From NCBI GenBank assembly GCA_029338835.1, contig JAQYBD010000015.1, forward strand, positions 1 to 42,358: DNA of 42,358 nt. Reading direction: 5' to 3'. Of this stretch, positions 280 through 42,358 are shown in pieces. The stretch is from Selenomonadaceae bacterium (GTDB taxonomy: Bacteria; Bacillota; Negativicutes; Selenomonadales; Selenomonadaceae). Position 1 is the first letter of the stretch. The number at the start of each line of letters is the position of its first letter. The notes below the pieces were generated by a model. It ran no database searches. It saw only the letters and a program-made list of their open reading frames with translations, and was not told the origin of the DNA. A program made the translations under genes and the position numbers.

Positions 280-357
280 GGTGACCCAGGAGGGACTCGA
301 ACCCCCGACCCTTTGATTCGTAGTCAAATACTCTAATCCAGCTGAGCTACTGAGTCA
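280..357 (-). tRNA. tRNA-Arg (ACG)
   Basis: Full cloverleaf on the minus strand with acceptor GACTCAG, loop CTACGAA giving anticodon ACG, T-loop GGTTCGAGTCC and an encoded CCA end (280-282). Last gene of the four-tRNA operon. Confidence 0.95.
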
Positions 358-381
358 TGTTGTGTTGGCTATGAAATTGTT

Positions 382-458
382 TGGTGGGCCCACTTGGACT
401 CGAACCAAGGACCGACCGGTTATGAGCCGGTTGCTCTAACCAACTGAGCTATAGGCCC
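382..458 (-). tRNA. tRNA-Met (CAU), elongator type, or Ile2
   Basis: Cloverleaf with acceptor GGGCCTA, anticodon loop CTCATAA (anticodon CAU), T-loop GGTTCGAGTCC and encoded CCA. It lacks the mismatched first pair and triple GC stem of initiator tRNA, so it is an elongator Met or the lysidine-modified Ile2. I cannot separate these by eye. Confidence 0.9.
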
Positions 459-495
459 ATGAATATATTGAACCGCCAGAGCGGCATCAAACAAA

Positions 496-570
496 TGGAG
501 CGGAAAACGAGGCTCGAACTCGCGACCCCCACCTTGGCAAGGTGGTGCTCTACCACTGAGCTATTTCCGC
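496..570 (-). tRNA. tRNA-Gly (GCC), copy 2
   Basis: Cloverleaf with acceptor GCGGAAA, anticodon loop TTGCCAA (GCC) and encoded CCA. Identical in sequence to the tRNA at 575-649, separated by only 4 bases: a recent tandem duplication or one kept identical by conversion. Confidence 0.95.
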
Positions 571-574
571 AATA

Positions 575-649
575 TGGAGCGGAAAACGAGGCTCGAACTC
601 GCGACCCCCACCTTGGCAAGGTGGTGCTCTACCACTGAGCTATTTCCGC
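575..649 (-). tRNA. tRNA-Gly (GCC), copy 1
   Basis: Same sequence as 496-570. It is the first gene of the minus-strand operon, about 55 bases downstream of the promoter at 708-736. Confidence 0.95.
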
Positions 650-6717: not shown

Positions 6718-7785
6718 TCAATACTTGTGGAACATGGCCTGGATCTCACCAAGATCATGCGTCTTGGTCAAAGCCAGCTGCAGCAGGATGCGTGCTTTCT
6801 GCGGATTCAGGGAATCGCCATCGAGGAATCCTTCTTTGGCATACTCCGGCTCCGGTACGACCATGCCGCTGCCGGTACGCGAGCTGCGCACGACGACAAC
6901 ACCGGCTTTGGCGGCCTTGATGAGCGCTTCCTTATCCTGCTGATGGATGCTGCCATTGCCCGTGCCGGCATAGACGATGCCCTTTGCACCAGCCTTGACT
7001 GCAGCATCTACGATCTTGCCATCCGAACCTGCCGTACCATAAATGACATATACCTTTGGCAGCGAAGTCAGGTTGCGGACATCAAACGGGGTCTTGGTCG
7101 TATGCAGGCGCAGCGGCTTGTTGTAGAAATCCGGCACACCATCATTCATGAAGCCCAGCGGGCCGTTATGCGATTTGAACGTATCGACCGAGGTCGTATT
7201 TGTTTTCGTGACATCGCGCGCATTGTCGATTTCGTCATTCAAGAGGACCATGACACCATTGCCCGAAGCTTTCTTGTCAGCAGCAAGACGCACGGAATTC
7301 AGCAGATTCATCGGGCCATCGGCACTGATGGCCGTTGCGGGGCGCATGGCGCCCGTGATGACTACGGGCTTATCGCTCTTGACCGTCAAATCGAGGAAAT
7401 ATGCTGTTTCCTCCAGTGTATCCGTGCCGTGTGTCACGACAATGCCACCGACATCTTTCTGCGCAGCCAGTTCATTGATGCGCTTGGAAAGCTTGAGCCA
7501 CAGCTCATCCGTCATATTGTTGCTGGAGATATTGCAGACCTGTTCGCCGGATACCTGGGCATAATCCTTGATTTCCGGCACTGCTTCCATCAGCACATCG
7601 ATGCCGAGCGAGCCGGCCTTATATCCGGAAGTCGCCGTCTTGGAAGCGGCACTGCCGGCAATCGTGCCGCCCGTAGCCAAGATTTTCACGCCGGGTTTCT
7701 GATCAGCCGGAGCCGCAAAACCGCATTGCGTACCTAAGATCATTGCCGAGAGCATGACCGCTGCAATAGAAAGTTTCGATTTCAA
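6718..7785 (-). CDS. ansB: Exported type II L-asparaginase
   Basis: A 355-residue protein hydrolysing L-asparagine to aspartate and ammonia outside the cytoplasm. Both signature threonines are present: T41 in ATGGTIAGS and T118 in THGTDTLEE with D122. The N-terminus is a signal peptide (KSK then a hydrophobic stretch to CGFAA, cleavage near residue 25). The start is a TTG at 7783-7785, 6 bases after AAGGAGAGG; the frame stays open 51 codons further upstream, but that segment lacks a site and would precede the signal peptide. Single gene. Aspartate produced could feed the dicarboxylate pathway served by dcuC and the SLC13 carrier (inference). Confidence 0.95.
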   Translation of the reverse strand: MKSKLSIAAVMLSAMILGTQCGFAAPADQKPGVKILATGGTIAGSAASKTATSGYKAGSLGIDVLMEAVPEIKDYAQVSGEQVCNISSNNMTDELWLKLSKRINELAAQKDVGGIVVTHGTDTLEETAYFLDLTVKSDKPVVITGAMRPATAISADGPMNLLNSVRLAADKKASGNGVMVLLNDEIDNARDVTKTNTTSVDTFKSHNGPLGFMNDGVPDFYNKPLRLHTTKTPFDVRNLTSLPKVYVIYGTAGSDGKIVDAAVKAGAKGIVYAGTGNGSIHQQDKEALIKAAKAGVVVVRSSRTGSGMVVPEPEYAKEGFLDGDSLNPQKARILLQLALTKTHDLGEIQAMFHKY

Positions 7786-38264: not shown

Positions 38265-39389
38265 TCACTTCAGCTTCACGAGTTCATATTCCCGCGTTCC
38301 CAGACCGATCTTTTCCGCGTGTTCCAGCGTTTCACGCCAATGCACATTGGGATTATTGTCGAGGAAATGATCGTGGTGATGATGCCAATCCGGTTTTGCC
38401 AGGTTATCCGCCAGCTGGCTGTTCGGCAGCGGCGTGGCTTTCAAGCAGGCATCGACGCACGCCTGGTCGAGAGCCACCGGATCAAACGAAGCAAACATGC
38501 CGATATTCGGCAGGATCGGTGCATCATTTTCGCCATGGCAGTCACAATTCGGTGAGATATCCATGACCATGTTGATATGGAAGCAAGGACGATCCTGGCA
38601 GACTGCCTGTGCATACTCCGCCATCTTGCGGTCAAGCTTGTCACCGGCATCCCACTGCTCATTGCTGATGGCGCTGAAAGAGCAGGCACCGATGCAGCGA
38701 CCACAGCCTTTGCAGAGTTCTTGATCGATGACGGCCTTGTTGTCGACATAATGGATGGCATCCGAACCGCATTCCTTGGCACACTGGCGGCAGCCGCGGC
38801 AGAGTTCCGGATCCACGATGCACTTGCCGGACGAATGCTGCTCCATCTTGCCGGCCCGGCTGCCGCAGCCCATGCCGATATTCTTGATGGCACCACCGAA
38901 GCCCGTAGCCTCATGACCCTTGAAATGCGACAAGCTGATGAAGACATCGGCATCCATGACGGCACGGCCAATCTTTGCTGCCTTGACAAATTCACCATTC
39001 TTGACCGGTACTTCCACATCATCCGTACCTTTGAGGCCATCACCGATGATGATCTGGCAACCGGTCGTCGTCGGATTGAAGCCATTGAGATTTGCACAGT
39101 CCATATGCTCAAGGGCATGCTTGCGGCTGCCCGGATAGAGTGTATTGCAGTCGGTCAGGAACGGGCGGCCGCCTTGCTCTTTGACGAGATCCGCCACGAC
39201 TTTCGCATACTGCGGGCGCAGGAATGCCATGTTGCCTAGTTCTCCGAAATGCATCTTGATGGCAACGAACTTGCCGTCCATATCCATATTCTTGATTCCA
39301 GCTGCCACGCAAAGTGTCTTCAATTTCTGCAAGAGATTGCGTCCTACGGGCACACGAAAATCCGTAAAATATACTTTCGCTTTTTCCAT
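38265..39389 (-). CDS. DUF362 protein with 2x4Fe-4S ferredoxin domain
   Basis: A 374-residue protein: DUF362 core (KVYFTDFRVPVG start, HFGELGNMAFLRP, SHFKGHEATGFGGAIKNIGM) with an inserted double ferredoxin module at about 190-245 (CRGCRQCAKECGSDAI and CKGCGRCIGACSFSAI). Such proteins occur in anaerobes and are suspected of electron transfer, but function is unknown. A His-rich stretch HHHHDH is near residue 335. ATG at 39389 follows GGAGG; the frame is open to 39479 without a site. It is preceded by a structured leader or independent small RNA and followed by the EAL gene. Confidence 0.88.
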   Translation of the reverse strand: MEKAKVYFTDFRVPVGRNLLQKLKTLCVAAGIKNMDMDGKFVAIKMHFGELGNMAFLRPQYAKVVADLVKEQGGRPFLTDCNTLYPGSRKHALEHMDCANLNGFNPTTTGCQIIIGDGLKGTDDVEVPVKNGEFVKAAKIGRAVMDADVFISLSHFKGHEATGFGGAIKNIGMGCGSRAGKMEQHSSGKCIVDPELCRGCRQCAKECGSDAIHYVDNKAVIDQELCKGCGRCIGACSFSAISNEQWDAGDKLDRKMAEYAQAVCQDRPCFHINMVMDISPNCDCHGENDAPILPNIGMFASFDPVALDQACVDACLKATPLPNSQLADNLAKPDWHHHHDHFLDNNPNVHWRETLEHAEKIGLGTREYELVKLK

Positions 39390-39479: not shown

Positions 39480-39655
39480 ATAAAATAACCATCAGCGGCT
39501 TTCTCGTCACCACTGATGGTTATCTGTGAGATAGGAACCTTTCGATCATTGAGTTTTTCCCTTTGGACTCGTTAACTAGCCCATCGGAATTACCTCCCAT
39601 CCTGAGTAAGTTGGTCGGCTGTCGGGAAAGGTGAACCCTGCCTTTCCTTTGGCTT
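39480..39655 (-). ncRNA. Unidentified structured RNA or riboswitch-like leader
   Basis: A stretch of about 175 bases without coding potential, preceded by a near-consensus promoter and ended by a hairpin with a T-rich tail. From 5' to 3' it can form GGAAAGG / CCTTTCC, a GGGCT / AGTCC hairpin with an 8-base loop, and the final CCATCAG / CTGATGG stem. I do not recognise it as 6S RNA, SRP RNA, tmRNA, RNase P or one of the common riboswitches I know. It may be an independent small RNA or a leader that attenuates the DUF362 gene. Transcript start is inferred from the promoter. Confidence 0.6.
39487..39521 (-). terminator. Terminator of the structured RNA
   Basis: AACCATCAG-x-GG / CC-x-CTGATGGTT stem; on the minus strand followed by TTATTTTAT and later TTTTTT. 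Confidence 0.72.
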
Positions 39656-39661
39656 GATTTT

Positions 39662-39690
39662 ATTATACCGGAAGGAAGGTCAAAAGTCAA
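39662..39690 (-). promoter_or_regulatory. Promoter of the structured RNA
   Basis: Minus strand TTGACT (39685-39690), 17-base spacer, TATAAT (39662-39667). Confidence 0.82.
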
Positions 39691-41267: not shown

Positions 41268-41353
41268 TGGTGCGGTCGATGGGACTTGAACCCATACGTC
41301 TTGTGAACACTACCCCCTCAAAGTAGCGCGTCTGCCAATTCCGCCACGACCGC
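41268..41353 (-). tRNA. tRNA-Leu (GAG), copy 2
   Basis: Class II tRNA with long variable arm, acceptor GCGGTCG, anticodon loop TTGAGGG (GAG), encoded CCA. Same sequence as 41492-41577. Confidence 0.93.
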
Positions 41354-41358
41354 ATAAA

Positions 41359-41445
41359 TGGTGCGGTCAAGAGGACTTGAACCTCCAAGGTGTTGCCACC
41401 ACTAGCGCCTGAAGCTAGCGCGTCTGCCAATTCCGCCATAACCGC
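41359..41445 (-). tRNA. tRNA-Leu (CAG), copy 2
   Basis: Class II tRNA, acceptor GCGGTTA, anticodon loop TTCAGGC (CAG), encoded CCA. Close to but not identical with 41602-41687. Confidence 0.93.
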
Positions 41446-41491
41446 ATGATATAAAATTGTAAGAACAGCACCATGTACTGTTTTAAGCAAA

Positions 41492-41577
41492 TGGTGCGGT
41501 CGATGGGACTTGAACCCATACGTCTTGTGAACACTACCCCCTCAAAGTAGCGCGTCTGCCAATTCCGCCACGACCGC
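41492..41577 (-). tRNA. tRNA-Leu (GAG), copy 1
   Basis: Class II tRNA with anticodon loop TTGAGGG and encoded CCA; identical to 41268-41353. Confidence 0.93.
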
Positions 41578-41601
41578 ATGATACAATATGAAGATTTTTG
41601 A

Positions 41602-41687
41602 TGGTGCGGTCGAGAGGACTTGAACCTCCATGATGTTGCCATCACTAGCGCCTGAAGCTAGCGCGTCTGCCATTCCGCCACGACCGC
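41602..41687 (-). tRNA. tRNA-Leu (CAG), copy 1
   Basis: Class II tRNA, acceptor GCGGTCG, anticodon loop TTCAGGC (CAG), encoded CCA. Differs from copy 2 in the acceptor stem, variable arm and D-loop. Confidence 0.93.
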
Positions 41688-41721
41688 GTAATATAAAAAT
41701 GAGAGGTATTGATACAATTGG

Positions 41722-41810
41722 TGGTGCCGAGGACCGGAATCGAACCGGTACGGTTGTTTCCAACCGACGGATTTTAAGTCCGTTGCGTCTGCCAGTTCCG
41801 CCACCCCGGC
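41722..41810 (-). tRNA. tRNA-Leu (UAA)
   Basis: Class II tRNA, acceptor GCCGGGG, anticodon loop CTTAAAA (UAA), long variable arm, encoded CCA. Confidence 0.95.
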
Positions 41811-41830
41811 AGTATCAAATTGCTGACTAA

Positions 41831-41904
<74 letters not shown>

Positions 41905-41915
41905 ATAATGCAAAG

Positions 41916-41991
41916 TGGAGCTGGCGAGAGGAATTGAACCCCCAACCTGCTGATTACAAGTCAGCTGCTCTACCAATTGAGCTACACCAGC
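41916..41991 (-). tRNA. tRNA-Thr (UGU)
   Basis: Acceptor GCTGGTG, anticodon loop CTTGTAA (UGU), encoded CCA. Confidence 0.95.
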
Positions 41992-41999
41992 TTGAAAAA

Positions 42000-42075
42000 T
42001 GGTGCCTCAGAGCGGAATCGAACCACTGACACGGGGATTTTCAGTCCCCTGCTCTACCGACTGAGCTACCGAGGC
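42000..42075 (-). tRNA. tRNA-Phe (GAA)
   Basis: Acceptor GCCTCGG, anticodon loop CTGAAAA (GAA), encoded CCA. Confidence 0.95.
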
Positions 42076-42093
42076 ATTTACAAGTTAGATAAT

Positions 42094-42122
42094 ATTATAA
42101 CACATTGCTGTGTAATAAACAA
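42094..42122 (-). promoter_or_regulatory. Internal promoter of the tRNA array
   Basis: Minus strand TTGTTT (42117-42122), 17-base spacer, TG-T-TATAAT extended -10 (TATAAT 42094-42099), between tRNA-Asp and tRNA-Phe. This is the widest gap in the upstream part of the array. Confidence 0.65.
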
Positions 42123-42123
42123 G

Positions 42124-42200
42124 TGGCGACCCGAATGGGACTTGAACCCATGACCTCCGCCGTGACAGGGCGGCATTCTAACCAACTAAACTACCGGGCC
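42124..42200 (-). tRNA. tRNA-Asp (GUC)
   Basis: Acceptor GGCCCGG, anticodon loop CTGTCAC (GUC), encoded CCA. Confidence 0.95.
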
Positions 42201-42219
42201 GTATAAAATTAGGTTTTAA

Positions 42220-42295
42220 TGGTGGGCGATAACAGGATCGAACTGCTGACATCTTGCTTGTAAGGCAAGCGCTCTCCCAGCTGAGCTAATCGCCC
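42220..42295 (-). tRNA. tRNA-Val (UAC)
   Basis: Acceptor GGGCGAT, anticodon loop CTTACAA (UAC), encoded CCA. Confidence 0.95.
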
Positions 42296-42301
42296 ATAAA
42301 A

Positions 42302-42358
<57 letters not shown>

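Follow-up and report, generated by a model that had tools for sequence, protein, structure and literature searches.

The minus strand of the stretch of DNA that we analyzed as a whole (the window, 42,358 nucleotides from a Selenomonadaceae genome) carries an element which, judged by its sequence, is an undescribed, conserved and structured small RNA that has a promoter and a terminator of its own and falls outside the families of Rfam. The core of the RNA is a long Shine–Dalgarno sequence followed by a start codon and an almost immediate stop codon, and we propose with moderate confidence that the RNA is independently transcribed and would function by engaging ribosomes via this start–stop minicistron. 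The locus comprises the following features.

39662–39690, minus strand: sigma-70-type promoter TTGACT-17-TATAAT, with 11 of 12 consensus matches
39484–39655, minus strand: RNA body of about 172 nt, matched by covariance model R1 with E = 3.4e-39 (the window sequence is among the 18 used to build R1)
39625–39647, minus strand: P1, 5' hairpin GGAAAGG/CCTTTCC, indicated by covarying pairs and the predicted fold
39586–39597, minus strand: extended Shine–Dalgarno sequence GGAGGTAATTCC, a near-complement of the 16S rRNA tail, with a duplex energy of −17.7 kcal/mol
39576–39584, minus strand: start–stop minicistron ATG GGC TAG (Met-Gly-stop), with an early in-frame stop in 61 of 62 copies
39565–39582, minus strand: possible hairpin GGGCT...AGTCC over the minicistron, from the predicted fold
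39485–39523, minus strand: intrinsic terminator hairpin with the conserved loop GG-UGACGAGAAAG-CC and a T-rich tail, from fold and covariation
38265–39389, minus strand: gene of a DUF362 and 4Fe-4S ferredoxin protein, a neighbor outside the RNA

The −35 box TTGACT (39690–39685) and the −10 box TATAAT (39667–39662) are separated by a 17 nt spacer on the minus strand. Directly upstream of the −35 box (upstream of 39690 in the window), the type-1 copies of Mitsuokella and Selenomonas share a conserved box, CAGAATACATAAAA..TCTGAAAA; a UP element or an operator is suggested. The calculated minimum free energy of the body (39655–39484) was −59.8 kcal/mol compared to −43.4 ± 4.3 kcal/mol after shuffling (z = −3.83), and none of the 200 shuffles was equally stable. 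About 95 nt separate the terminator of the window from the start of the DUF362 gene (39389). The promoter, the structured body and the terminator hairpin with its T-rich tail ahead of DUF362, which a sequence-only reading had described, are all present on the minus strand, as is the GATGG motif occurring twice in the body. The same reading saw no open frame here, which is true of long frames and not of the conserved core, a two-codon ORF (ATG GGC TAG, 39584–39576). Both ends of the contig carry clusters of minus-strand tRNA genes (window positions 282–649 and 41271–42358).

No Rfam 15 family reached the gathering score in the window, in agreement with the sequence-only reading, which had recognized no known RNA family; a permissive scan returned chance-level matches only. 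The same search with 20 relatives, including second copies and the larger RNAs of the oral group, also gave no family at the gathering score. The open-access literature on Selenomonas and Negativicutes yielded no description of such an RNA.

A plain DNA search detected the element in 25 of the 189 genomes of Selenomonadaceae. Model R1, built from 18 sequences of this set including the window, found the RNA in 65 of the 189 genomes and in 15 of the 30 genera of the family, while a class-wide search outside the family gave weak matches only. Matches to R1 in other genomes reach E of about 1e-50 and a promoter with at least 10 of 12 consensus positions precedes 61 of 68 copies; the RNA is therefore more than a chance pattern. 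Its main carriers are Mitsuokella, Selenomonas ruminantium with its kin, and the oral Selenomonas/Centipeda group. In the latter, the RNA is larger, with the promoter about 190 nt before the core and a type-1 terminator about 350 nt after it. Several genomes contain a second, divergent copy (G000:C4:5032-5202 in the genome of the window, which is from a gut Mitsuokella), and these divergent second copies are devoid of the type-1 terminator loop. Two further Mitsuokella matches (L027, L029) were rejected as promoter-like only; there, another gene is preceded by a promoter that contains the palindrome TGACATGTCA and by a transcript start resembling this RNA.

The collected homologues demonstrate conservation within the family, and both P1 and the terminator stem covary. 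Across 34 type-1 sequences, 95.3% of the cells of these two stems were paired as compared to 23–49% with the partners slid, in an alignment that was fitted to the tested structure and thus favors it. Changes on both sides were found in 16 of the 30 pairs of P1 and the terminator, and in 8 of the 15 pairs of the terminator stem alone. The short helices around the Shine–Dalgarno sequence, P2 (GCC/GGC) and P3 (GGA/UCC), are near-invariant, so covariation speaks neither for nor against them, and the conservation of GGA...UCC could reflect structure as well as pairing with 16S rRNA. The AUGGG at the start codon and a downstream CCCAU can pair in most relatives, leaving the stop codon in the loop: at least 4 pairs from the AUG were found in 71% of copies and in 42% of shuffles. 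This start-codon hairpin, P4, is weak or absent in some genera. The terminator loop is essentially invariant among type-1 copies; ribosome binding does not account for such ultraconservation.

The best-conserved stretch of the RNA is GGAGGNGANTCC-R-ATGGG. Its first part, GGAGGNGANTCC, is complementary to nearly the entire 16S rRNA tail and is followed by ATG-GGN-(one codon)-stop. Since the draft assembly of the window's genome contained no exact GGATCACCTCCTTT match, relatives supplied the 16S tail, namely G041 (M. multacida), G146 and G025, in which the 16S rRNA ends in GGATCACCTCCTTTC. The median duplex energy of the Shine–Dalgarno sequence with 16S rRNA was −17.1 kcal/mol among the copies, a value reached by 2% of 205 long ORFs even with the best start of each ORF chosen. 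GGAGG and AUG are spaced by 8 nt, a proper distance for a strong Shine–Dalgarno sequence. The second codon is a glycine codon (GGC, GGT or GGA), which is partly a product of the searches because they required ATGGG, and the stop codon follows directly or one codon later.

Stop codons were counted in 62 distinct copies from searches made without a stop requirement, the copies being interrelated and the counts ignoring kinship; the named-genome scan required a stop codon and was therefore excluded. An in-frame stop was present in 61 of the 62 copies, at codon 3 (12 copies), codon 4 (48) or codon 6 (1), compared to early stops in 4 copies in frame +1 and in 9 in frame +2. The single exception, L080, carries a small duplication, and a second ATG GGC AGG TAA follows. 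The stopping copies use all three stop codons (TAA, TAG, TGA) and 17 distinct codon words. Close relatives swap the position of the stop, such as ATG GGC TAG for ATG GGC CAC TAA, and three Mitsuokella encode MGH-TAA, MGH-TGA and MGQ-TAA. Because stops change type and position among close relatives while the other frames rarely stop early, the early in-frame stop is, on sequence grounds, maintained by selection, for which RNA structure alone would be insufficient. A longer conserved peptide from another start was rejected, as the 24-aa frame seen in L013/L015 did not persist. Matches to the core pattern outside the family in G197, G259 and G260 were ordinary gene starts. Among viral contigs, the pattern occurred in one only.

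The extended Shine–Dalgarno sequence together with a short ORF, two codons long in the window (AUG GGC UAG) and two to three codons long in almost every copy, would form a ribosome-loading site. A ribosome would bind there with very high affinity, synthesize fMet-Gly, terminate immediately, and then stay or restart. The ends of the RNA would be closed by the 5' hairpin and the terminator. The start codon would lie in weak hairpins that the ribosome must open, so that occupancy and fold would be mutually exclusive. We infer from these patterns that ribosomes probably initiate and terminate at the minicistron and, with less certainty, that engaging them may be the function of the RNA beyond its own stabilization, by acting in trans as a decoy for initiating ribosomes or as a sensor of them.

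The main competing explanation places the RNA in cis, as a leader in which occupancy of the minicistron would decide between termination and read-through into the next gene, similar to antibiotic-responsive uORF attenuators. We regard it as possible, though rather unlikely. A short uORF with a terminator is a known attenuator layout, and a gene on the same strand usually follows the RNA, sometimes 33–60 nt after the terminator, which a leader would fit. DUF362 is downstream in Mitsuokella, most of the S. ruminantium group and three more lineages, 41–150 nt after the terminator. The downstream genes are, however, unrelated: besides DUF362 they include a PotA-like ABC protein, a Bcr/CflA transporter of the drug-efflux type, guaB (after second copies), an OPT transporter and others (identities other than DUF362 being read from the sequence without a profile search), and the RNA is intact next to a convergent neighbor in L004/L005. 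The gene guaB (IMP dehydrogenase) follows the divergent second copy in L067, L069, L071, L072, L075, L077 and L078, which belong to the S. ruminantium group and to a sister genus; MGP-stop and a conserved GGTAATAGCTAGCC-like motif are present in most of these second copies. Some of the gaps may contain a promoter of their own, e.g., TGGTATAAT in L006/L007, which also speaks against a leader. No conserved antiterminator was found: pairing of the left terminator arm with upstream sequence did not exceed chance either in the window (p = 0.335) or in 34 relatives (mean z = −0.29). The GATGG/CCATC antiterminator put forward in the sequence-only reading was thus at chance level, its partner site moving between relatives, and the switch of DUF362 and an EAL gene that the reading envisaged is not supported as a function of the family, given the varying downstream genes and the convergent neighbor in L004/L005. 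A riboswitch-like DUF362 attenuator would be expected always to precede the same or functionally related genes, and those found vary. Of the two options offered by that reading, a new small RNA or a riboswitch-like attenuator, the first holds as a new conserved structured RNA and the second was not borne out for the family. Within the DUF362 lineages a role in cis is possible, because in several Selenomonas DUF362 begins only 41–57 nt after the terminator.

The other alternatives act in trans. In a trans-acting antisense RNA, the terminator loop UGACGAGAAAG (or GCCGACAUG) would pair with mRNAs, and the minicistron would only protect the RNA from nucleases. The near-invariance of the loop in type-1 copies would suit this, and strong Shine–Dalgarno minigenes do stabilize RNAs (PMC8708949); but the own genome contains the loop complement CTTTCTCGTC 14 times and a reversed control just as often, the divergent second copies do without the loop, and several minicistrons would be unneeded for stabilization alone. 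We consider the antisense explanation improbable. Still far less probable is a protein sponge of the CsrA/RsmE type, with repeated GGA motifs as binding sites and an accidental short ORF. Several GGA motifs are indeed present, some of them in hairpins, but CsrA is absent from three Mitsuokella (G000, G040 and G041, of which G000 is the genome of the window and 100% complete) and from G125 with its three units; it is present in most genera without the RNA, and the in-frame stops would be left unexplained. For Mitsuokella, a CsrA sponge was rejected as contradicted by a host without CsrA. We therefore favor ribosome engagement, followed by the cis leader and then by a ribosome-stabilized antisense RNA.

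Some copies contain several minicistrons. Two start–stop units in one stretch were found in G182 and G183 and three in G125, the stretch ending with a type-1 terminator or an equivalent. By locus, three minicistrons per RNA stretch are present in L079/L125 (RUG11126) and two in L065 and L074 (RUG072, RUG179). The named-genome scan for the core with a stop also gave contigs of Lachnospiraceae and related bacteria with a promoter just upstream. One of them (L111:6804-7500, contig JAAVZI010000025.1 of a Lachnospiraceae MAG) carries about nine tandem units of Shine–Dalgarno, AUG and short ORF in an apparent RNA; its unit type is GGAGGTACAGACCRATGTACACATAA (Shine–Dalgarno, Met-Tyr-Thr-stop) and its first unit is GGAGGAGATTCCAATGGGAACGTAA. 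In the same contig, 1.2 kb further upstream, there is another RNA of this type. The core occurred in 6 of 295 genomes of this order, and several of these matches were ordinary gene starts; because the core is this rare, the Lachnospiraceae arrays may be convergent rather than homologous. We tentatively suggest, as something short of probable, that an RNA class with a dedicated start–stop minicistron may serve, free-standing, as a decoy for ribosomes or a sensor of initiation, with repeated loading and release, and with 2, 3 or about 9 units in some lineages.

Three Lachnospiraceae contigs (L112, L138 and L156) contain what appear to be free-standing RNAs, about 230 nt long, with a promoter, the same minicistron core, the motif GAGGTACGGACCACC and a terminator; a sugar-kinase-like gene lies downstream in L112 and L156. 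L138 also contains two tandem Clostridiales-1 RNAs (RF01699, function unknown) at 6784-7109. In three contigs of Lachnospirales (L179, L180 and L181), the core motif leads into a real ORF whose start resembles a signal peptide; thus, the ribosome site also serves ordinary genes there.

Ultra-short start–stop ORFs are known as isolated elements in mRNA leaders, the lambda bar minigenes being an example with two codons. The tiny ORF, structured leader and intrinsic terminator of antibiotic-responsive uORF attenuators resemble the Selenomonadaceae RNA, which differs from them in having neither a conserved antiterminator nor a common downstream gene. CsrB/RsmY sponge RNAs are likewise free-standing and at times built of repeated units, whereas CsrA is missing in Mitsuokella and the repeated unit here is a translation start with a stop. 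In the axe-txe leader, active translation of the minigene mg2 (ATG ACT TAA) increases expression of the gene that follows, possibly via mRNA protection, and the two-codon minigene of EHEC LEE1 has been discussed alongside it (PMC8708949). These two-codon leader minigenes share with the Selenomonadaceae RNA a strong Shine–Dalgarno sequence and an AUG, one sense codon and a stop, and their effect is ascribed to ribosome binding, RNA protection or drop-off and not to the peptide. However, the axe-txe, LEE1 and lambda bar minigenes act in cis a few nucleotides upstream of a gene, while the Selenomonadaceae RNA is a separate conserved unit with its own terminator, varied neighbors and sometimes several minigenes. 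Extended Shine–Dalgarno sites of Firmicutes are similar in their long pairing with the 16S tail almost to the start codon, as described near the start codons of S. aureus (PMC13009471); the S. aureus sites start real proteins, whereas a ribosome on the Selenomonadaceae RNA would reach a stop after two or three codons. What is new here is a family of free-standing RNAs with a start–stop minigene at its heart. Such RNAs escape both protein and RNA annotation. If the proposed function is true, a gene can exist for the sake of making a ribosome start and stop.
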